Assembly (NCBI GenBank): GCA_015709495.1
Contig: CP054189.1
Coordinates: 2,232,001 to 2,296,000 of the forward strand
Direction of reading: 5' to 3'
DNA: 64,000 nt
Source of the DNA: Chthonomonadaceae bacterium
GTDB taxonomy: Bacteria > Armatimonadota > Fimbriimonadia > Fimbriimonadales > Fimbriimonadaceae
Each line of letters starts with the position of its first letter. The first letter of the stretch is position 1. The notes under the pieces are model-generated. The model made no database searches. It was given only the letters and a program-made list of their open reading frames with translations, and had not been told where the DNA came from. Positions 8,042 to 63,649 of the stretch are shown here, piece by piece. The translations under genes and the position numbers were made by a program.

Positions 8042-8047
8042 TATACT
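8042..8047 (+). promoter_or_regulatory. -10 box (TATACT) 7 nt before the EVE-domain gene
   Basis: TATACT ends 7 nt before ATG 8055, so transcription would begin at or next to the start codon (leaderless mRNA). No clear -35 element is visible. Confidence 0.45.
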
Positions 8048-8054
8048 CTCGCGT

Positions 8055-8513
8055 ATGCGGAGCTGGCTGATGAAGTCCGAACCGGACTGTTACGGCATCG
8101 ACGACTTGGAGCGCGAAGGAGTCGGGATGTGGGAGGGCTGTCGCAATTACGCCGTGCGCAATTTCCTCAGGGACTCGATGGCAGTAGGCGACCGGGCGTT
8201 TTTCTATCACTCGAACGCCGCGCCTACGGGGATCGTGGGTTGGATGGAAGTCGCGTCGGAGGCCTACCCCGACCCGACCCAGTTTGACCCGAAAAGTGAA
8301 TACTTCGACCCGAAGGCAACTCCTGAGAGCCCGCGTTGGTACGCTCGGGACATGCGCTTTCGGGAGCGTTTCCGCGGAGTCGTTACCTTGGCTCAACTCA
8401 AGGCGACGCCAGGGCTCGAAGACATGGCCGTCACCAAGAAAGGCCAGATGCTCAGCATCACGCCGGTCACCGATGCCGAGTGGGAGATCGTGATGGGACT
8501 CGCGAGCGGTTGA
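8055..8513 (+). CDS. EVE-domain protein (modified-base-binding, PUA-like fold)
   Basis: 152 residues. It opens MRSWLMKSEPDCYGIDDLER, the classic start of the EVE/thymocyte-nuclear-protein family, followed by WEGCRNYAVRNFLRD, VGDRAFFYHSNAAPTGIVGWMEV (binding-pocket strand), and D(P)KSEYFDPKA...W. EVE domains bind modified cytosine or adenine in DNA or related small molecules. There is no ribosome-binding site, but a TATACT box lies 7 nt upstream. It converges with pgk with no gap: its stop ends at 8513 and the pgk stop starts at 8514. Confidence 0.9.
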   Translation: MRSWLMKSEPDCYGIDDLEREGVGMWEGCRNYAVRNFLRDSMAVGDRAFFYHSNAAPTGIVGWMEVASEAYPDPTQFDPKSEYFDPKATPESPRWYARDMRFRERFRGVVTLAQLKATPGLEDMAVTKKGQMLSITPVTDAEWEIVMGLASG

Positions 8514-9692
8514 TTAGCGGTCGAGCAGCACCGCCACACCCGGAAGTTCCTTGCCCTCAAGGAACTCCAGGCTCGCTCCTCCACCCGTGCTAACGTGAGA
8601 GACCTTGTCGGCGTACCCAAATGCCTCGATGGCGGCCGCTGAGTCGCCTCCGCCCACGATCGTTACCCCTTTGCAAGACGCCATGCCTTTGGCGACCGAC
8701 CGTGTTCCTTCGGCAAAGGGTTCGAGTTCGAATACCCCCATGGGGCCGTTCCACAGAACCGTTGCGGCATTGGAAGCCAGGTCGGCGAAGGCCCGCGCGC
8801 TTTCAGGGCCGATGTCGAGTCCGAACTGGTCCGGGGGAATCGAGTCGGCGGAAACGACGGTAGCGGGCGCCTCGGCTGTGATGTTGGGTGCGACCACGAC
8901 GTCCGTTGGAAGGACGAGACGGTCGCCGGCTCGCTGAATCACCCCTTTCGCGAACTCGAGATTCGCCTCGTCGAGCAGCGAGCGTCCGATCTCGTACCCC
9001 TTGGCCTTGAGAAACGTGAAAGCCATCCCACCTCCGAGGAGGAGTTGATCGACCTTGCCGAGGAGCGACTCGATGACGAGGATTTTGTCGCTCACTTTCG
9101 CGCCCCCCAGAATCGCCACAAACGGCCTGCTGGGGCTTTCGAGCATGGCCCCCAAGAACTCGATTTCTTTCTCCATGAGGAAGCCGGCGACGGCGGGAAG
9201 GTAGCGCGCGATCCCCTCGGTCGAGGCGTGTGCCCGGTGAGCCGTGCCGAACGCGTCGTTCACGTAAACCTCCGCCAGTCCTGCCAGCGACTTTGCGAAT
9301 GTGGGGTCGTTCGCCTCCTCGTCCGGGTGAAACCGAAGGTTCTCGATCAGTACGATCTCGCCAGGCCGGAGGGCGGAGGCCGCACTTTCGACCTGATTTC
9401 CCACACAGTCCGGCAACAGCTCGACGGGCCGTTCCAGCAGTTCGGAGAGCCTTTTTGCGATAGGGCCGAGCGAGTACTTCGGGTTCGGAGCGCCCTTAGG
9501 TCGCCCGAGGTGGCTCGCCGCAATCACCGAGGCTCCTGACTCAAGCAGGTATCGAATCGTGGGGAGCGCGGAACGGATTCGGCGGTCGTCCGTGATCTCG
9601 CCGTCCTCAAGGGGAACGTTGAAATCACAGCGCACAAACACCCTCTTGCCCGTGACTTCGACGTCCCGGACGGTCTTTTTCTGAAACGGCAT
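8514..9692 (-). CDS. pgk: Phosphoglycerate kinase
   Basis: Glycolytic/gluconeogenic enzyme transferring phosphate between 1,3-bisphosphoglycerate and ADP. 392 residues, the normal length. Seen: the N-terminal substrate signature RVFVRCDFNVPL, the SHLGRPKG loop, IENLRFHPDEEAND, the hinge and ATP-domain motifs GGAKVSDKI, NGPMGVFELEPFAEGT and VGGGDSAAAI, and the C-terminal ST-GGGASLEFLEG loop. It appears complete and monocistronic; no glycolytic neighbours are present. Confidence 0.97.
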   Translation of the reverse strand: MPFQKKTVRDVEVTGKRVFVRCDFNVPLEDGEITDDRRIRSALPTIRYLLESGASVIAASHLGRPKGAPNPKYSLGPIAKRLSELLERPVELLPDCVGNQVESAASALRPGEIVLIENLRFHPDEEANDPTFAKSLAGLAEVYVNDAFGTAHRAHASTEGIARYLPAVAGFLMEKEIEFLGAMLESPSRPFVAILGGAKVSDKILVIESLLGKVDQLLLGGGMAFTFLKAKGYEIGRSLLDEANLEFAKGVIQRAGDRLVLPTDVVVAPNITAEAPATVVSADSIPPDQFGLDIGPESARAFADLASNAATVLWNGPMGVFELEPFAEGTRSVAKGMASCKGVTIVGGGDSAAAIEAFGYADKVSHVSTGGGASLEFLEGKELPGVAVLLDR

Positions 9693-9884
9693 GTCAGCTT
9701 CAATTGTACCGGGATGACCTGCGCGAAGCAGCTTTCCGAAGGGAACGGCCTTGGCGTGGACGAAAGTACGGCCCGCCTTAGCGAAGCCGGGAGCGGGGTC
9801 GAGGGGGCAAAGAACCTGTTCATTTTGAGAAAAACAGTGCTATATTGGAATTGGAGAGTAGGCTCTCTGGAGAGGTACCCATTC

Positions 9885-10688
9885 ATGAACCATCGAAAAT
9901 CCCGAGCATTTACGCTCATCGAACTTCTGGTAGTCATCGCTATCATCGCCATTCTCGCGGCCATCCTGTTCCCTGTGTTTGCGCAGGCGAAGGAGCAGGC
10001 CAAGAAGACCACGTCGATCTCGAACATGAAGCAACTGCTGCTGGCGGCGATCATGTACATGACCGACGCCGACGACAAGCATCATCGGATCCGGAACGGT
10101 TATCAGACCTATGTTCCCCCCACGGGAGACCCGAACTGGGCCATCGGTGCCGAAGACATGCTGGTCCCCTATATCAAGAACTCCGGGTTGTTCAAGAACC
10201 CGAGCGACCCCATCGAGCGCGACGACTGCGACGCGACCTATGGATTCCCGATCAGCTACTCCTGGACGCACTATCAGTCGGGGACCTGGGAGGACAGCGC
10301 GACGTTCGGTGTCCACGCTTATTACAACACCCAGGACTCTCGGCCCGAAGCGGCCATCGGCAAGCCCGCGCAGACGATCATCCTTTACGACCTGTGGACG
10401 ACGGCCTCGTACAGCGAGGGTTATTCCTACTGGCGTTGGGATAACACGGGAATCGCGGTCGGAATCCCGCTCCACCCACAGCAACTTTCGTTCACTTGGT
10501 GTTCTGCCAAGCCGGGCGCGGCGAGAATGTCGATCGGTAGCCACAACAGCAACAGCAACTGGGGCTTCGACGATGGGCACGTCGCGACCATGAGGCGAGA
10601 GCAGATCATGCATCGCCCGTGGGATGCGACCGCCATCGCCAACCGAGAGCGGAACCTTCTGCACTGGAACGAGGAATTCAAGAAGTAG
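9885..10688 (+). CDS. Type IV pilin-like protein (N-methylation/cleavage signal, H-X9-DG motif)
   Basis: 267 residues. The prepilin leader is [32 protein letters not shown]: cleavage after the Ala/Gly-type site before F, Glu5 of the mature protein, then a long hydrophobic helix. The C-terminal part contains H-NSNSNWGFD-DGH, the H-X9-DG motif of the large pilin-like families common in Planctomycetes and Armatimonadota. Start ATG 9885 has GAGAGG upstream, and TATATT at 9841 may be a -10. Its stop directly abuts the ATG of the next small membrane protein, so the two are co-expressed. It is probably exported and membrane-anchored; assembly into a pilus is not shown. Confidence 0.85.
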   Translation: MNHRKSRAFTLIELLVVIAIIAILAAILFPVFAQAKEQAKKTTSISNMKQLLLAAIMYMTDADDKHHRIRNGYQTYVPPTGDPNWAIGAEDMLVPYIKNSGLFKNPSDPIERDDCDATYGFPISYSWTHYQSGTWEDSATFGVHAYYNTQDSRPEAAIGKPAQTIILYDLWTTASYSEGYSYWRWDNTGIAVGIPLHPQQLSFTWCSAKPGAARMSIGSHNSNSNWGFDDGHVATMRREQIMHRPWDATAIANRERNLLHWNEEFKK

Positions 10689-12936: not shown

Positions 12937-12975
12937 GCAGGTGAGTGTACCTACGTGGCTTCTCGAATCCAGACC

Positions 12976-24485: not shown

Positions 24486-24634
24486 TGGACTCTACTCCCA
24501 AACGGCCGAAGATCGTCTACGGTGTTGTATCTTTCGCCGTCAACGACTCGATCCCCTCCCCGATTCTTCGTAAAGCCTCTGAGGCTTGCCCCAAAGTTCT
24601 CTCCGCCCATTCTCGCTTGGGGCATACTGATTGT

Positions 24635-30459: not shown

Positions 30460-30510
30460 AGTGAACCCATTTTACCTTCAGTTCGCTGCATCGAGCGGCC
30501 GCGGGGCGGG

Positions 30511-33668: not shown

Positions 33669-33700
33669 TTGACTCTCAACCGAGGTTCAGGCTTCACACT
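33669..33700 (+). promoter_or_regulatory. MerR-type promoter with dyad in a 20-bp spacer
   Basis: -35 TTGACT (33669-33674), -10-like CACACT (33695-33700), spacer 20 bp. A dyad CTCAACC-GA-GGTTCAG (33675-33690) fills the spacer, with one mismatch. An elongated spacer containing the operator is the hallmark of MerR-family control. The predicted transcription start falls 1-2 nt before the ATG at 33709, so the mRNA would be nearly leaderless. Confidence 0.8.
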
Positions 33701-35849: not shown

Positions 35850-36142
35850 AAACTCCTCCAATTCAAACATAGCACCCGGCCTTCAGCCGGAAGCACGAAG
35901 ACATTGTATCAGAAGCCGGGCCATCCGCGCCGCAAAGTCCGCAAACCCGGCAATCCTACTTGGAGTCGAGCGTCGCGAGGTCCATCGTCCCAGTTTGCGT
36001 CCGCTCCAGTTTCGCGGCGACCTAGGAGCCAGTCTTGCGGAATCGCTTGAGAAGCGGGATGCGTTCGCACCGTGGCCATCGAACCCATACCACTATGACG
36101 AATCTCATTCCCGCTGGACGCCGGGTGGGGAACAATGGAGAC
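35850..36142. other. Spacer between divergent PEP-CTERM and DsrE-like genes
   Basis: About 290 bp. Both strands have open frames, but none with a recognisable domain, ribosome-binding site or family resemblance. No repeat element is seen here. Confidence 0.4.
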
Positions 36143-36493
36143 ATGAAGGTCCTGATCATCCTCAACGACGCCCCGTACGGGGGGGAGCGCGCCTACAACG
36201 GCCTCCGCACGGCAATGACGCTCCAGAAGGAGCACGGCGCCGATGTGCGCGTGTTCCTCTTCGCCGATGCGATCTGGGCGGCGGCCTCCGGCCAGAAGAC
36301 TCCCGACGGTTACTACAACGTCGAGCGAATGCTCAAGGCGATCGTCGCCAAGGGCGGGCAGATCAAGCTCTGCGGCTCGTGCGCCGACGCTCGCGGGTTT
36401 GACCGGGAGAAGGCGGTCCCCGGGGTCCTGATCGGCAGCATGCCCGAACTCGCCGACTGGGTCGTGGAAGCCGAGAAGTCGCTCGTGTTTTAG
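36143..36493 (+). CDS. DsrE/DsrF-like family protein (YchN type)
   Basis: 116 residues from ATG 36143 (TGGAGAC upstream). Starts MKVLIILNDAPYGGERAYNGLRTA, contains VRVFLFADAIWAA, a Y-Y-N-V-E-R-ML helix, and the conserved Cys motif KLCGSCADARGF, then GSMPELADWV. This is the DsrE-like sulfur-relay fold. Single-gene members like this are of unknown partner. The two Cys in LCGSC are the likely reactive residues. Confidence 0.88.
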   Translation: MKVLIILNDAPYGGERAYNGLRTAMTLQKEHGADVRVFLFADAIWAAASGQKTPDGYYNVERMLKAIVAKGGQIKLCGSCADARGFDREKAVPGVLIGSMPELADWVVEAEKSLVF

Positions 36494-44009: not shown

Positions 44010-47000
44010 CTACTGAGTCCCAAGGTACCACTCATAGTATCCAGTCATGTCAGGTCGCCATCGTCTAGTTGTCGCAAGCTCGGCTTCGACTTCATAGGGG
44101 GCACCATCGTGACTTAATGCCAGCAGATACTGTACTATTACAGTGGCGACGAAAGATATAGCATTTCCGTCGTGGTAAGTCTCCTCTTGGTAAATGTGCA
44201 TTTTCTCGTGGCGGGACCAGTGGGAGTCGTTGAGATAGTCTACGTAGTCGTCAGGGTCATTCAAGTGAACGGTCTCGTTCACCGTCATCGCGTTCTGCTT
44301 GCGATTGAAGAGGGCTGGCCAGCCGCCTACCCTAACGGGCTCACCCCCCGGTCCAATGACGTCGATGCCAAAATACCAGTCCTTTGCTCCCTCCCAGAGG
44401 TCAGATAGGAAGCCGAGTCCAGTGGGGTCCGCCAATGATGGGCCGTTATTTCGACAATACCCATACCAATTCCGCCCATCCTTGATCGGATCCCTAGTCA
44501 AGAATCTCCCCGTCGAAGGATCGTAGTACCGATGACCGAGGAGTTTCAGGCCGGAGTCGGGGTCGGATTGGTAGCCGTAGGGGCCTCCATAGGCGAAGGG
44601 GCCTTGCCAGGTTCCGGAGGACGAGGTGACGTTGCCGAAGGCGTCGTATTGAACGCTGGCGGTGACGCTCTCAGAGGTGTTGGTCTGGGAATCCCCGTTC
44701 TTGATCCCGGCGTGGTAGAAGGTGGTGGTGGAAGAGCGTCTTTCTGAGATGGCGGGGGTGTAGGTTGCACTTCCGTCCGAAAGCACCGGCGAGGTCACCG
44801 ACACCCCATCCCGAAGGAAGGTCTTCGACCCGCCCGAGTCCGACATCCCCACCCGCGTGTCCAGCCCGTTGTACGTAAACGAGTTGGTAGACTGGTTCGG
44901 GTAAGTGATCCCCGTCACCCTCGACTCATAGTCATAGGCCAGCGAGGTCGTCCCGGCCGAGGTCTCGACGGCGGTCGTCCGCCCCGCCGAGTCGTAGGTG
45001 AACTCCTTGACCGTCTGCTGCCCGATCTTCACCTCCAGCAGCTTGTCGGCGTCGTCGTAAACGTAGTCCTCGGTGACCGAGTTCACCGTCCGCGTCAGGC
45101 GGTTGCCGTTGGCATCGTAGGTGTACGAAGCCGAATACCCGTTCCTGGACTCCGAAACGAGTTGGTCGATGTCGTCGTAGCCGTAGCTGGTCTGCACCCC
45201 GCCCGTGGTGTGGGTCAGCACGTTTGAGGCGGGGTCGTAGGTCCAGGTCTGCGTGCGGACCGTCTGGTTCGAGGAGTTCTTCAAAAGAACCTGCGTCACG
45301 CGGCTGCGGACGTCGTACGAAACCGTCTCGTACATGCCGCTGTCCAGCGTCCTTTCGGTGACCCGCCCCCCGGCGTCGTAGGCAAACGCCGTGACCTCTT
45401 CGAACGGGTTCTCCAGGCTCAGTAGACGTCCCGCGTCGTCGTAGGCATAGGTGGTCACCCCCACCCCGTCCACGTCCATGCTCGTTCTGCGCCCGGCGTC
45501 ATCGTAGGCGTAGGCGATCTCGCCCTCGGGGTCTCCAGCAGCGTGAGCTGCGAAGCGGCGTCGTAGGTCCAGTTCGTCGTGCCGGTGGCGTCGGTCATCT
45601 GGGCGCGCCGCCCGGCGAAGTCGTAGCTGAAGGCCGTGTCGGTTCCGGTGGGATAGTCCACCCCGGTCATGCGCCCCGCGTCGTCGTAGGCGTAAGAGAC
45701 GGTCTGCGAGAGGGGGTTGGTGTAGGCCGACACCTGGCCGTTGCCGTTGTAGCTCCAGGTCTCGACCGAGCTATCTGCCAGCGTGAGGGTGTAGACCTCG
45801 CCCCTTGCGGTGTAGGCGTAGTTGCGGGTCTTGCCGCGCCCGTTGGTGACGCTGGTGAGCCACCCGTTCGAGTTGTAGGCGTAGGTCCCCGACTCCTCCT
45901 CGGCGTTCGTGACCTGGGTGAGCCTGCCCGCGTCGTCGTAGGCATACGAGGTGACCTTGCCGCGCTCGTTGGTGACGCTGGTGATCCTCCCCACCTCGTT
46001 GTAGGAGCGAAGAACCTCCTCCTCGTCGTCGTGGGTGATCACCGACAGCCGCCCCCACTCGTCGTAGGCGAACGACTCGGTGATGCCGTTCGGGTCCGTG
46101 ACGCTCGTGACCCACCCCAGGGAGTTGTAGGCGATCTCGGTCAGGCCGTCCTCGGGGTCGGTGATGTCTGTGAGGTTGCCGCTGGTGTCGTACCCCAGCG
46201 TGGTGGTCTCTTCCTCGCCGTTGGTGGTGCTCAGAACCTGCCCGTACGAGTCGTAGGTGTTGGTTTGGACGACGCGCTCCAAGGGGTCCGTGACGGTCTC
46301 CAGGTTCCCGTAGGCGTCGTAGTCATAGGCGGTGAGGTTCTCCAGCGGGTCCTCGGCGCTCAGAAGGTCGTTTTCTGAGCTGTAGGTGAAGGTCCAGGTC
46401 TTGGAGAGCGGGTTGGTGACCGTCAGCACGTTGCCCCTGGAGTCATAGGTATAGCTCCAGGATTTGCCCCGGCGGTCGGTCTTGCCCGTGACCTGGTTGC
46501 TGCCGTTGTAGGAGTAGCTTTCGCTGAAGGACGCCTGGTCGGTGATGCTGACGAGCTTGCCCGAGGAGTAGTTGTGAACGATCGTCTGGCTGCCCGGCAG
46601 GGTGATCGTGGTGGCGCTGGCGGTGTAGGTATAGCCGGTGGTGTGGCTGAGCGGGTTGGTGGCGCTCGAAAGGCTCCCGTCGGAGTTGTAGCTGTAGTCC
46701 CACTCCTTGCCCCGCCGGTCGGTGTGGGTGGTGATCCGGTGAGAGGCGTCGTATTCGAACGCGTCGGCATAGGTCGTCTGGTCGAGGTCCGGCCACTCCA
46801 CGGCGTCGAGTTCGTCCGTCTGGGAGTTGAGGTCGAAGGTCCAGACCCTGCCCAAAGGGTCCTCGACGGAGGTGAAGTTGTTATTCTGATCGAGCGAGAT
46901 CGTGAGGCTGCGCCCGCTGGGGCCGGTGACCTCCGTGACGTAGTTGTACTGGTTGAGCGTCAGGGTGACCGTGTTGCCGTTTCGGTCCTCGATCTCCTGG

Positions 47001-47804
47001 CAGAACCCGTCGCCGTTGAACCGGTACTCGGTCTGGTCCTTTTGGGTCAGGGTCCAGGTGCCGTCGGTGTGCTTGACGAGCTTATCGTAGAGGCCCGCGG
47101 GCGGGTCGTAGTCGGTGTCGAAAGCGGTCGAAGGGAAAGCGATCGAGGCAAAGAGCTTCGAGAGGTCCCCAACCTCTCCGCCTCCCCCGCCCATCGACTG
47201 CGAAAACGGGATCGCCGTGCCGTCGCCCCAGTGAACGATGGCGGTGCCCATGGACTCGTAGATGTAGATGTCATAGGTCCAGGTCCAGCCGTGGCCAAGT
47301 TCGTCGTTGTAGTCCGACTGGCTGTTGTGAAACAGCGTGAAATCCACGGCCATGCCGCCCCGATCCTCCCAGGACACCAGGGGAACCCGGGTGAGCTTGT
47401 TGCCGTTGCCGCTGTTGACCTGGCCGCCGGGGAGTTGACCTGTCCCTCCCAGGGCAGCCCCGCTCCGGGGCCTCTTCGCAGGCGAGCGTGTGGGTGGAGG
47501 CGGAAGCGCGCCGCTGGTGGAGGCCAGGAGCCTTGCCATGCGGCTTTGAGCGGCGGCGGCCTTGGTGCGGGCGTTCCAGAGCCCCCGCGAGTGGCCGGAT
47601 CGCGGCTGGGATTGACCCCCGGTAGGCGGGGAGTGGCCGGTCGGTGAAAGGCCCCACCCGTGATTGCAGCGCCCTTTGGGCAAAGTCCGCCGCAGCCAGC
47701 AGAGCGCCGTTGATCCCGGCCGAACCCGAGCTGTAGGCAAGGCTCAAAACGAGCGTGATCGAGACGAGCCTGCCGAAAACCCCCTTCCGCGCACGCCCCC
47801 ACAT
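44010..47804 (-). pseudogene. Full-length RHS/YD-repeat protein with HEKMH metallopeptidase tip (two frameshifts)
   Basis: About 1264 codons. Start ATG 47804: signal-like MWGRARKGVFGRLVSITLVLSLAYSSGSAG. Then a secretory/scaffold part (VNSGNGNKLTRVPLVSWEDRGG..., DYNDELGHGWTWTYDIYIYE) and ~25 YD repeats. The RHS core is DPDSGLKLLGHRYYDPSTGRFLTRDP, and the ~140-residue tip has SRHEKMHIYQEETYHDG plus YEVEAE (HExxH with a downstream Glu: zinc metallopeptidase-like). The body is out of frame with the N-terminus (shift ~47650, near GGCCCCACCC) and with the C-terminus. The latter is a one-base loss in GGGG at 45528-45531; restoring one base gives LLETPEGEIAYAYDDAGRRTSMDVDG. It is either inactivated or affected by sequencing errors. 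A strong promoter precedes it. Confidence 0.85.
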
Positions 47805-47811
47805 GCCCTTA

Positions 47812-47840
47812 CTTATACAACACATTCTCCAAAACGTCAA
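47812..47840 (-). promoter_or_regulatory. Sigma-70-type promoter of the rhs gene, leaderless
   Basis: On the minus strand TTGACG (47840-47835), 17-bp spacer, TATAAG (47817-47812). Seven nt later comes the rhs ATG, so the transcript would start at or next to the start codon. Confidence 0.8.
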
Positions 47841-49551: not shown

Positions 49552-49670
49552 CGAACCATTATGGTACCTACCAACCGGAGGGAACTGCGTCGGCAAACCT
49601 CAATTCTCGCTGAGGGTTCGGTTTTCGAGAAGGCGGGGTGATGCTGGCGGAGTGAGATGCGGGCAACGTG

Positions 49671-51141: not shown

Positions 51142-51957
51142 ATGTCCGTTTCCTCTTGGGGGACCACGAGGGCCATCTTCGTGATGGGTGTTTCGCTTTT
51201 TGTTGTCGCTTCAGGTCTGGCACAGCCACGCGTTGCCATCGTGGCGGCCGCGGCGAGTAGTGGCGCCGATGCGCGCTTTACCGACCCGCAGGCAAAGTTG
51301 ACTGGCACCGGGTTCTTTAGCGCGGTGGATATCATCACGGCCAACACGACGACCCCGAGCTTGGCCACTTTGCAGAACTATGGCGCAGTGCTGGTGTGGA
51401 GCAACGTCAACTTCGCCAACGCAAGCGCGCTTGGAGACGTTTTGGCGGACTACGTAGACGCCGGAGGGGGAGTTGTCGTCGCGGTGTTCGCAAACTCGAC
51501 GACGACGGCCAACCGATTTCTCACCGGCAGGTGGTCGGCCCAGGCGGACAACTATGAAGTGATCGTCACGCAAGGAGGGAACACTTCGGGCACGGCGCAG
51601 GGCCTGGGTACGGTTCATGTTCCTGGACACGCAATCATGAACGGCGTGAGCACGTTCCTCGGAGGCTCCAGCAGCTTCAGGCCGACTTCCACAGCCCTCA
51701 GGCCAGGCGCAACGAAGATCGCCAGTTGGACGGACGGAAAGACGCTGGTAGCGGTGGGAGCGAATCCGCGTCGCGTTGACTTGGGGTTTTACCCACCGTC
51801 GAGCGCGGTCGTTGGCACCTATTGGGACCAGTCCACGGACGGCGCGAGGCTCATGGCCAATGCGCTCGTCTACTCGATGGTCCCGGAACCTGGCACGATG
51901 GCCGCCCTAGGACTTGGGGCCACGGCGGTGTTGGCCCGACGCCGCAAGCGCAAGTAG
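51142..51957 (+). CDS. PEP-CTERM protein with a GATase/ThuA-like Rossmann region
   Basis: 271 residues. A very strong AAGGAGGTGA site precedes ATG 51142. Signal peptide MSVSSWGTTRAIFVMGVSLFVVASGLAQ. The mature part PRVAIVAAAASSGADARFTD, LATLQNYGAVLVWSNVNFAN, LADYVDAGGGVVVAVFANST and LVAVGANPRRVDLGF resembles a class I glutamine-amidotransferase-like fold without the catalytic Cys. C-terminus VPEPGTMAALGLGATAVLARRRKRK is a PEP-CTERM signal. Confidence 0.82.
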   Translation: MSVSSWGTTRAIFVMGVSLFVVASGLAQPRVAIVAAAASSGADARFTDPQAKLTGTGFFSAVDIITANTTTPSLATLQNYGAVLVWSNVNFANASALGDVLADYVDAGGGVVVAVFANSTTTANRFLTGRWSAQADNYEVIVTQGGNTSGTAQGLGTVHVPGHAIMNGVSTFLGGSSSFRPTSTALRPGATKIASWTDGKTLVAVGANPRRVDLGFYPPSSAVVGTYWDQSTDGARLMANALVYSMVPEPGTMAALGLGATAVLARRRKRK

Positions 51958-61461: not shown

Positions 61462-62292
61462 TTAAGAGTAGACCTCCGCTGATGATATCCCAGCAGGGTT
61501 GGGGGGCAGGCAGGGCGTAGCCCGACTGAACTCCAGACTCTGCGCGGCCACCGCCGGGGGGCGATAGCCAAGCGACGAATGCGGCCGAACCTCGTTGTAG
61601 TAGCGACGGTAGATCGCCGTCTTCATCTGAGCGTCGGCCAGATTGACAAAGACCTCGACGTCGAGGTGATCCCGGCGCAGGGTCGAGTGGAACGACTCCA
61701 CGAACCCGTTCTGCCAGGGTTTGCCCGGATCGATGAAGCGGCTGTTCGAACCGGATTCAGAGAGAAACACCGCGAGCAGCCGGGCAACGAACTCGCCGCC
61801 GTTATCGCTCCGAACGAACCGGGGAGCCCCGCGATCGGCAAAGAGCGGAGCCAATACGTCGCGCACCTTGCGAGCATTGATCCGCGTCGCCACCTCCAGA
61901 GCCAGGCACTCCCGAGTGAACTCATCCTCCACCGAAAGCACCTTGAGCTTCGTTCCGCTCAGGCAGGAATCATGGATAAAGTCCACCGTCCACACGTGGT
62001 TGGGATGCTCCGCCGACAGGGGAACCGGGTTCCCGGTCCGCTTCTTGCGATATCGCGTCTTGCGGCCGAGCCGCTCCTGTTTCCAGATTCGATGCACCCG
62101 CTTGAGGTTCAAGGGAGCGAACTCCTCCTTCACCAGGGCTTGCGCCATCCGGTAGCCCATGTTGGGCCGCCAGACCCTCCTGAGTGCTTCCCTGAGCGCA
62201 GCGTCCCGGTCCGGCCCTGGCTCCTCATAAACAGCGCGAGTCGAGATCCCGGTCATCCAGCAAGCCCTGCGGACCGTCATGTTCCGCTCCAT
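61462..62292 (-). CDS. IS3-family transposase OrfB (integrase core)
   Basis: 276 residues. N-terminal HTH_21 (ALREALRRVWRPNMGYRMAQALV...RIWKQERLGRKTRYRKK), then the rve DDE core: WTVDFIHDSCL (D), FVRSDNGGEFVA (D), PWQNGFVESFHSTLRRDHLD (E), and YNEVRPHSSLGYRPP at the C-terminus. Intact. It is normally made as an OrfAB fusion by -1 frameshifting; its ATG abuts the orfA stop. Confidence 0.93.
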   Translation of the reverse strand: MERNMTVRRACWMTGISTRAVYEEPGPDRDAALREALRRVWRPNMGYRMAQALVKEEFAPLNLKRVHRIWKQERLGRKTRYRKKRTGNPVPLSAEHPNHVWTVDFIHDSCLSGTKLKVLSVEDEFTRECLALEVATRINARKVRDVLAPLFADRGAPRFVRSDNGGEFVARLLAVFLSESGSNSRFIDPGKPWQNGFVESFHSTLRRDHLDVEVFVNLADAQMKTAIYRRYYNEVRPHSSLGYRPPAVAAQSLEFSRATPCLPPNPAGISSAEVYS

Positions 62293-62597
62293 CAGGAATC
62301 GCGCCCCCGCGACGGGTTCGGGAGCGCGAGTCCGTTTTTTCGGAACAGCGCCCGTACCGCGTCGATCTCAAGGTCTCTTTCGGCAAGAAGACGCTTGAGC
62401 TGAGCGTTCTCCCGCTCGAGCTCGCGCAGATGCCGCACATCGTCGGTCTGCATCCCCGCATACTTGCGCTTCCACACGTAGAACGTGTTGGCGCTGACTC
62501 CGTGGTCGCGGCAAAGCTGGGCCTGCGTCTTCTGGCCCGATGCTGCCTCCTGCAGAATCCTCACGATCTGCTCCTCGCTGAACTTCGATCTCTTCAT
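62292..62597 (-). CDS. IS3-family transposase OrfA
   Basis: 101 residues from ATG 62597: MKRSKFSEEQIVRILQEAAS, GQKTQAQLCRDHGVSANTFY (helix-turn-helix), WKRKYAGM, then a leucine-zipper-like LRELERENAQLKRLLAERDLEI and RALFRKNGLALPNP. Complete. Confidence 0.93.
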   Translation of the reverse strand: MKRSKFSEEQIVRILQEAASGQKTQAQLCRDHGVSANTFYVWKRKYAGMQTDDVRHLRELERENAQLKRLLAERDLEIDAVRALFRKNGLALPNPSRGRDS

Positions 62598-62661
62598 GAT
62601 TGCCTCCAGTTTGAACCAGAGAACTACTTTTCTGACGTCTTCAATTTTGGGGGGCAGACCA

Positions 62662-63030
62662 GGAGCCCTTGACATGCGTGGGGCGCGCCCCGAGTTTGAC
62701 ATCGGTGAGGAGCAGACCCGAGAACAGCATCCCGGCCTTTGACATCAGGTCGTAGTGTTCAGCGTCCAGGATGTCGGGCTTGTCTGAGGGAGCATGAGCA
62801 ACGATAAAGAGGTCCGCCTCATGCAAGTCCTCAAGGCGCAAGGGGCCAAGCCACTCTTTCCAATGGTCCTTGATCCATTCCCCGAGATTCCCAAAGACGA
62901 ACATCTCGGCGTCCACGATTTTCGGGAGACTCGCTGTCAGAAACGGAACATGCAAGCCAATACACGCGAACTTCTCTCCTTCTTTCAGTTCGAAGGGATT
63001 CTCCACAGACTCTGTGAACGCTTCCATCAT
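62662..63030 (-). pseudogene. Hypothetical protein truncated by the IS3 element
   Basis: About 120 codons remain from ATG 63030: [20 protein letters not shown], then [60 protein letters not shown], ending LTDVKLGARPTHVKGS before entering the IS. No stop codon of its own remains. Family not recognised. Confidence 0.6.
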
Positions 63031-63034
63031 GGTG

Positions 63035-63063
63035 TTGCAGGAGGATACCGGATCAGCTATACT
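63035..63063 (+). promoter_or_regulatory. Promoter upstream of UvrA-like fragment 2
   Basis: TTGCAG (63035-63040), 17 nt, TATACT (63058-63063), then 9 nt to ATG 63073: a very short or absent leader. Confidence 0.55.
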
Positions 63064-63072
63064 CTTGTCCAC

Positions 63073-63267
63073 ATGTCAGGTTCGGGTTGGCTCATCCTGC
63101 GAGGCGCTTCCGGGAACAACCTCCAATCGCTCGACGCGGCGATCCCCGTCGGCCTGTTCACCTGCGTGACCGGCGTCAGCGGGAGCGGAAAGTCCACGCT
63201 GATCCAAGACACCCTGTATCCCCGGCTGCTCTATGAGCTTTACGGAACGAGGACGACCTGGGCACCG
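63073..63267 (+). pseudogene. UvrA-like NBD fragment 2
   Basis: [40 protein letters not shown] (Walker A), [25 protein letters not shown]. Homologous to fragment 1 but with many silent and some amino-acid differences, so not a recent duplicate. It stops resembling UvrA at the same Trp-Ala-Pro position. Confidence 0.75.
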
Positions 63268-63277
63268 CAAATGCTAG

Positions 63278-63649
63278 TCAGATCGAGCAACACTCCTCCC
63301 CGTTCTGGCCCGAGCCCTTGAATGCAGCAAATGCCTTCAAAGCCCACGTCTCACCCACACAGCCGCCCATGGTAGAAGCGACCGCGCAAATCTCCCCGAT
63401 CTCTTCCTCGTTCGCGCCCATCTCGCGCGACTTGAGCGCGTAATACTTCACGCACGGCTCGCACCGTGCGCTGATGGACCACAGCAACGCGGAAAGCACT
63501 TTGAACTTGGACGGAAGTGCGCCGTCGCTGTAGATCGCCTTCTGCCGCATCCCTTGAATTGCGCCCGTCGTGCCGTGAGTCGCTTTCGCGAAGTCGGTAA
63601 GGTGCTGATAGGCTGGTTCGATGTCCGTGAGTTGATGGCTCATTCTCAT
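63278..63649 (-). CDS. Carboxymuconolactone decarboxylase / AhpD-like protein
   Basis: 123 residues. [60 protein letters not shown] with the CxxC redox motif (CEPC) followed by Y-Y-A-L-K in place of the usual proton-relay His, then [20 protein letters not shown]. Ends with a CC pair (GEECCSI). The start overlaps the MerTP-like stop by 4 nt (ATGA), so the two are coupled. Thiol-disulfide role inferred. Confidence 0.85.

Follow-up and report, generated by a model that had tools for sequence, protein, structure and literature searches.

Boxes and gene starts in the window

The window (the whole stretch of DNA that was analysed, 64,000 nucleotides) corresponds to bases 2232001-2296000 of a single-contig genome of 2,897,187 bases that is 99.6% complete and has one 16S gene match. 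It contains an EVE-domain gene whose closest named relatives come from metagenome-assembled genomes labelled Armatimonadetes, Fimbriimonadaceae, Fimbriimonas and, in one case, Chthonomonas. This gene and a phosphoglycerate kinase gene are convergent, with stop codons that abut at 8513-8514 with zero gap. The initial annotation had described -10-like boxes ahead of five genes, and all five were present with the sequences and spacings given there (posteriors are from the box model described below).

8042..8047, plus strand: TATACT, -10 box of the EVE-domain gene, 7 nt before ATG 8055; posterior 0.92
8055..8513, plus strand: EVE-domain gene, Pfam PF01878 at residues 3-148, ATG 8055 conserved in relatives
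24623..24628, plus strand: CATACT, box of a gene for a putative lipoprotein (103 aa), 6 nt before ATG 24635
33695..33700, plus strand: CACACT, weak box of a MerR-thioredoxin fusion gene, 8 nt before ATG 33709; posterior 0.61
47812..47817, minus strand: TATAAG with TTGACG 17 bp upstream, box assigned to rhs, 7 nt before ATG 47804
63058..63063, plus strand: TATACT with TTGCAG 17 bp upstream, box assigned to 'UvrA fragment 2', 9 nt before ATG 63073

The gene starts attached to these boxes were of uneven quality. The prediction of a leaderless-type start at ATG 8055 is solid, given that the EVE domain starts at residue 3 and that both start and box are conserved. A Pfam scan placed the MerR domain at residue 1 of the ATG 33709 frame, and this start is plausibly correct, with a weak box. 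ATG 24635 is likewise a plausible start, for a protein with a signal peptide and an LWGC lipobox (judged by eye) and no hit in a Pfam scan. The two remaining starts are doubtful. ATG 47804 opens a 177-aa frame that stops at 47271, gave no hit in a Pfam scan and differs from the frame of the RHS ORF at 45455-47740, and as an rhs gene start it is unproven. ATG 63073 sits within an ORF (62794-63321) that has only sub-threshold P-loop-type hits in Pfam, and is probably not a gene start.

Two features of these last regions were observed in passing. ATG 47804 (minus strand) opens a signal-peptide-like N-terminus out of frame with the RHS-repeat ORF, and the region 45455-47804 of the minus strand may contain either a frameshift or two genes. 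A transposase helix-turn-helix domain (HTH_Tnp_1) at 62292-62702 on the minus strand adjoins the P-loop-like fragment at 62794-63321, which suggests an insertion-element neighbourhood.

The genes at 51142, 35849 and 3696, which had been set against the boxed genes as users of Shine-Dalgarno (SD) sites, do have strong SD sites. Candidate leaderless genes that are better examples than the five cited start at 9692, 12936, 30459 and 49551 on the minus strand and at 36143 on the plus strand.

8514..9692, minus strand: phosphoglycerate kinase gene, Pfam PF00162 at residues 8-381
9703..9708, minus strand: TACAAT preceded by GG, -10 box of the phosphoglycerate kinase gene, 10 nt before ATG 9692; posterior 0.95
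12944..12949, minus strand: TACACT preceded by GG, -10 box of a chorismate synthase gene, 7 nt before GTG 12936; posterior 0.99
30469..30474, minus strand: TAAAAT preceded by GG, -10 box of an aldehyde dehydrogenase gene, 9 nt before ATG 30459; posterior 1.0
36131..36136, plus strand: AACAAT, box of a DsrE-family gene, 6 nt before ATG 36143; posterior 0.86
49558..49563, minus strand: CATAAT, box of a gene for a nitronate monooxygenase-like protein, 6 nt before ATG 49551; posterior 0.96

The DsrE-family gene also has GGAG 2 nt before its ATG, which is nearer than usual SD sites.

The box as a probable promoter at the start codon

We examined a sample of 864 kb (30% of the genome, including 40 evenly spaced 20-kb stretches), in which 686 genes were called with a home-made coding-potential caller that ignored upstream signals ('blind' starts). 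Operon classes (first, mid, operon-internal and edge) were assigned from intergenic gaps only, and d denotes the number of nucleotides between the end of the box and the start codon. A genome-wide plot of TANNNT relative to start codons, proposed as a check by the initial annotation, gave a sharp peak. At d=6-10 there were 95 hits upstream of 663 genes with blind starts against 21.3 expected from positions 16-65, and 49 against 4.5 for the stricter TANA[AC]T. Counted once per gene, TANNNT preceded 94/663 genes as compared to 18, 24 and 15 in three control windows.

The box emerged from a mixture model as GGTAnAATC (G 71%, G 55%, T 68%, A 95%, T 35%, A 75%, A 55%, T 93%, C 51%), most commonly at distances of 6 (0.38), 7 (0.20) and 9 (0.18) nt and ranging up to 12 nt. 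Expectation-maximization on shuffled data also yields a 'leaderless' class (27%), whose motif carries little information and whose spacing is flat, and hence significance was judged from nulls with fixed model parameters (five dinucleotide shuffles and five rotations) and not from raw class sizes. A posterior above 0.9 was obtained for 99 of 681 genes, as compared to 6-9 in shuffles and 10-20 in rotations, and a posterior above 0.5 for 154 genes, as compared to 37-46 and 54-60, respectively. Subtraction of the null counts leaves an excess of about 12-17%, such that approximately one gene in seven in this genome looks leaderless. The earlier proposal that the organism probably uses leaderless initiation widely is thus supported, with 'widely' meaning about one gene in seven, and does not need the two doubtful starts.

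It is exceedingly improbable that the boxes are random matches within intergenic DNA of higher AT content. TANNNT is somewhat commoner before genes than before internal ATGs at most distances, but the peak spans only about d=6-12 and has flat counts on either side, shuffles and rotations yield 6-20 genes instead of 99, and an excess was present in counts from 201 genomes in which a 10-nt longer spacer served as the control (see below).

SD sites are also in use. SD cores at d=4-10 were found for 161/663 genes against 55, 67 and 76 in control windows, and for 69/185 operon-internal genes against 17, 24 and 20. Given this excess and the presence of the anti-SD sequence GGATCACCTCC at the 3' end of the 16S gene, the genome is not of the SD-less (Bacteroidetes-like) type. 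The SD-site excess is about 13-16% of genes, similar in size to the box excess, and for most genes neither signal is clear at blind starts. We do not claim that SD genes form the majority, as the model had seemed to indicate: its SD class exceeded 0.5 in 491/681 genes but in 505-531 in shuffles, and because this class is uninformative SD use was judged from core counts alone. None of the 99 boxed genes had an SD core at -16 to -5, a result that is partly by construction, the two signals being competitors in the model. Posteriors above 0.9 were distributed among the operon classes as 60/324 first genes (rotated mean 9.4), 25/121 mid genes (1.7), 12/185 operon-internal genes (0.7) and 2/51 edge genes (1.0), an enrichment at possible operon heads (85/445) relative to operon-internal genes (12/185; p=3e-5).

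A match to the box of at least 7 bits was present within 70 nt upstream of 7/10 sampled tRNA genes, with 8-34 nt between the end of the match and the tRNA, as compared to an average of 0.4 and a maximum of 4 in 300 shuffles and to 1 for the reverse complements. This indicates that the box is a promoter element. The rRNA operon is preceded by a TTGACA-18-TATAAT promoter. TTGACA-like hexamers (at least 4/6 matches) occurred 3, 3 and 0 times at spacers 16-18 in the 99 boxed genes, with no enrichment of a -35 element. Alternatively, the box could serve translation initiation or mRNA stability, as an AT-rich unstructured stretch or as a site for ribosomal protein S1, within a longer 5' leader, and not be a promoter. 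According to the main text of Nakagawa et al. 2017 (PMC5397173), AT-rich bias before starts is not separable from S1 sites by composition alone. We regard this alternative as very unlikely, because the signal is a specific word, GGTAnAAT, and not general AT-richness; because it lies upstream of untranslated tRNA genes more often than in any of the 300 shuffles, with TATAAT and a TTGACA 18 bp upstream preceding the rRNA operon; and because it is rarer inside operons and was not seen before TTG starts.

The start codons also bear on where transcription would begin. TTG starts were absent from the 94 boxed genes with blind starts as compared to 34/569 of the others (p=0.009), and from the 99 genes of the model set as compared to 31/241 (p=1.6e-5; the model has its own codon term). 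An absence of TTG is expected if transcription begins on the initial purine of an ATG or GTG codon. By the usual rule for the distance from -10 element to +1, a box ending 6 nt before the start codon puts +1 on the start codon. The distance is variable, however, and part of the mRNAs may carry leaders of 1-5 nt; with the box 9-12 nt away, a few nt of leader would be expected. A broader form of this idea, that many transcripts have leaders of 2-6 nt and that initiation occurs on very short leaders, agrees with the frequency of boxes at d=9-12, the own-genome peaks at 6, 7 and 9 and the range of d=5-12 for phosphoglycerate kinase. We consider it possible but rather unlikely, as the commonest distance, 6, puts +1 on the start codon and TTG, which would place a T at +1, is absent.

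The box is conserved at individual genes. For EVE, 41 loci gave 38 upstream regions, that of this genome included, after removal of two without the conserved motif and one repeat. A -10-like hexamer ended 4-10 nt before the start in 30/38 regions and an SD core was present in 2/38; box distances clustered at d=5-7 (9, 11 and 5 regions), with at most two per position from d=10 on. Among 30 family loci of phosphoglycerate kinase, one of them from the same species, the box was found 5-12 nt before the start in 25, with GG directly before it in 19. Absence of the box from 8/38 EVE regions and 5/30 phosphoglycerate kinase loci counts against the leaderless interpretation, as does its presence at 12/185 operon-internal genes.

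Distribution in Armatimonadota

Control genomes were run through the same pipeline, and Armatimonadota families are labelled f1 (the family of this genome), f2, f3, f5, f8 and so on. TANNNT at d=6-10 was positive relative to expectation for the Deinococcus deserti plasmid (12 vs 2.6, x4.6) and flat for Escherichia coli K-12 (10 vs 10.1, x1.0) and f9 (G078, 7 vs 6.3, x1.1). There was an excess in two f1 genomes (G008, 21 vs 2.2; G027, 12 vs 3.2), in f2 (G041, 22 vs 8.8) and in f17 (G072, 23 vs 7.0), and a weak one in f26 (G116, 10 vs 5.6); counts were 11 vs 9.5 in f12 (G081) and 1 vs 8.8 in f8 (G100). GG before TA was learned independently in G008 (54%, 55%), G041 (95%, 99%) and G072 (83%, 68%), and the G027 motif has G then C in place of GG. 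SD cores were enriched x5.8 in f8, x6.3 in f12 and x2.0 in f9. As a separate observation, TANNNT is raised a second time in G041, at 16-18 nt upstream of starts (7, 5 and 3 hits), perhaps reflecting short-leader genes.

We then surveyed 201 evenly drawn genomes, at least 80% complete, for TANAAT-N6-9-ATG against the control TANAAT-N16-19-ATG. An excess at one-sided p<0.001 was detected in 51/201 genomes, all in six families (51/63), and in 0/138 elsewhere. The significant genomes were 33/42 in f1, such that 9/42 genomes of this family miss the threshold, 1/1 in f2, 1/1 in f3, 1/2 in f5, 10/11 in f17 and 5/6 in f26. On an rpoB tree of 29 of 30 genomes, from families picked before the tree was built (G172 of f26 was omitted as its rpoB is fragmented, and G158 covers 40% of columns), the six signature families form two clades: f1, f2, f3 and f5, which belong to one order, and f17 with f26. 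A single joint clade, and with it one origin in the phylum, was rejected (p-AU 9.6e-5), and the tree requires no fewer than two changes. The closest sampled relative of the order that includes this genome is f8, which is rich in SD sites and lacks the boxes.

Loss of ribosomal protein bS21 was considered as a cause and rejected as unlikely, since PF01165 is present in all 42 f1 genomes, in all 6 f26 genomes and in each of the four genomes from f2, f3 and f5 that were searched. It was found in 9/11 f17 genomes, G148 and G167 not being among the matches listed. bS21 was not found in 53/201 genomes, and the 20 of these that were listed are all from non-signature families (e.g. f9, f24 and f34).

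Compact divergent pairs and known systems

Compact divergent leaderless pairs are a new element of the present analysis. Among 100 divergent pairs in the sample of this genome, the 15 with both genes of the leaderless type had a median of 50 bp between start codons, as compared to 258 bp for the 44 with no leaderless gene (p=1.3e-5, or p=3.2e-5 without one miscalled pair). That pair, from the window (9692 minus and 9714 plus, 21 bp), was rejected as a gene-caller error: a prepilin-type N-methylation motif at residue 61 of ORF 9714-10688 places the real start near 9885, and the called start is probably about 171 nt too early. Of the 14 others, nine were at 17-63 bp and five at 119-1194 bp. Distances for both-leaderless pairs elsewhere were 41, 64, 86, 87, 90, 187 and 852 bp in G008, 76, 92 and 338 bp in G027, 33, 82 and 262 bp in G041 and 27, 77 and 208 bp in G072; D. 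deserti, which has leaderless genes too, had five such pairs at 177-1139 bp. With blind starts, divergent gaps below 100 bp were more frequent in five leaderless-rich samples (47/195) than in those without the signal (f9, f12, f8 and E. coli; 5/76; p=0.0004), with D. deserti (2/19 below 100 bp) and f26 (0/21) excluded; the difference for gaps below 45 bp (8/195 vs 1/76) was not significant (p=0.23).

Both proteins were scanned against Pfam for ten of the 13 pairs at no more than 65 bp, the window pair apart. All 20 proteins had a domain, and the first domain began no more than 13 residues from the called start in 15/20, the five exceptions being a biotin carrier, a CBS protein, an amidohydrolase, a beta-helix protein and SpoIIM. 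Both starts pass in the first five of the following pairs, listed with the distance between start codons.

greA and a glycosyltransferase gene (L126), 17 bp
lumazine synthase and DUF4127, 27 bp
DHDPS and CNNM, 38 bp
DNA ligase and an acetyltransferase, 48 bp
SNO amidotransferase and an arginase-family protein, 50 bp
formiminotransferase-cyclodeaminase and an amidohydrolase, read as imidazolonepropionase, 49 bp

Whole genomes were searched for CAT, a reversed box, at most 30 nt, a forward box, 6 nt and RTG, with both boxes turned in the control. Back-to-back boxes numbered 529 against 135 controls in the 63 genomes of the signature families and 397 against 460 in the other 138 genomes. Pairs with fitting distances on both sides contributed one count per strand, both in the target and in the control; the p-value of 6e-56 is thus too small, and the contrast between the family groups is the result. 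Individual significance (p<0.01) was reached by 16 genomes, all in f1, f2 and f17, and this genome had 6 against 1. Some families depart from a uniform rule: f5 had no excess (4 vs 5), f26 had little (46 vs 25) and f30, without the leaderless signature, had the same leaning (20 vs 11).

Taken together, we consider it highly probable that this genome has -10 promoters at start codons and leaderless translation, mixed with SD genes, that this regime occurs in two Armatimonadota clades and that it includes compact divergent packing. The boxes would be housekeeping -10 elements of a sigma-70-like RNA polymerase with the consensus GGTAnAAT and no enriched -35. Transcription would start at the start codon or within a few nt of it, leaving an mRNA without room for an SD site, which would be translated by leaderless initiation. 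The remaining genes, above all the operon-internal ones, would use SD sites, and the mixed regime would be a property of this order and one other clade. Divergent genes could then lie head to head, their start codons separated by two -10 boxes and little more, and some neighbours would share a promoter region of only a few dozen letters. In a compact pair the polymerase could presumably occupy only one of the two sides at once.

We tentatively extend this to a further possibility, for which the chances are somewhat below even: that the two clades adopted -35-less GGTAnAAT leaderless transcription together with a minimal bidirectional either/or switch element. The start codons of such an element would be separated by a few dozen bp (17-63 in the sample of this genome), each with its own nearby box, and in the tightest pairs each upstream promoter region would fall inside the opposite coding sequence. 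One RNA polymerase would then block the other, making each compact pair a built-in either/or switch.

These results add a lineage of Armatimonadota to the bacteria rich in leaderless genes, with the other sampled families of the phylum lacking the signal. The close contrast between this order and the SD-rich f8 makes it possible to ask which changes in promoters, ribosomes or sigma factors accompany leaderless use, start calls in signature genomes should make use of the -10 box, and the compact divergent pairs provide a testable case of promoter exclusion. Our literature searches found no relevant report on leaderless genes or transcription starts in Armatimonadota or Fimbriimonas, and none that combined leaderless genes with divergent transcription and bidirectional promoters.

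In an extended -10 element, TGnTATAAT, a -35 is dispensable and there is a T at -15 and a G at -14. The box described here is alike in needing no -35 and in having a G just upstream of the -10, but differs in having GG directly before TA (71%, 55%) and not TGn, T being present at the third position before TA in only 14%. The D. deserti plasmid run gave a weaker motif without GG. Leaderless initiation is known in Actinobacteria (19%) and Deinococcus-Thermus (39%), and the TA-led genes described in the main text of Zheng et al. 2011 (PMC3160421) have a TANNNT core with its first T about 12 bp before the start and occur in genomes with SD sites in use as well, as is the case here. The term 'armatimon' is absent from the main texts of that study, of StartLink (PMC9581028) and of Nakagawa et al. 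2017 (PMC5397173). Bidirectional promoters, as described by Warman and colleagues in the main texts of PMC12825309 and PMC10268837, have start sites 7-25 bp apart, most commonly 18 bp, and a symmetric shared -10; 'leaderless' occurs 0 times in these texts, and in our compact pairs the start sites would coincide with the start codons. The greA/glycosyltransferase pair, with 17 bp between start codons and first bases 18 bp apart, matches this commonest spacing, whereas the other compact pairs that we read (at least 27 bp) have two separate boxes, unlike the shared symmetric -10.
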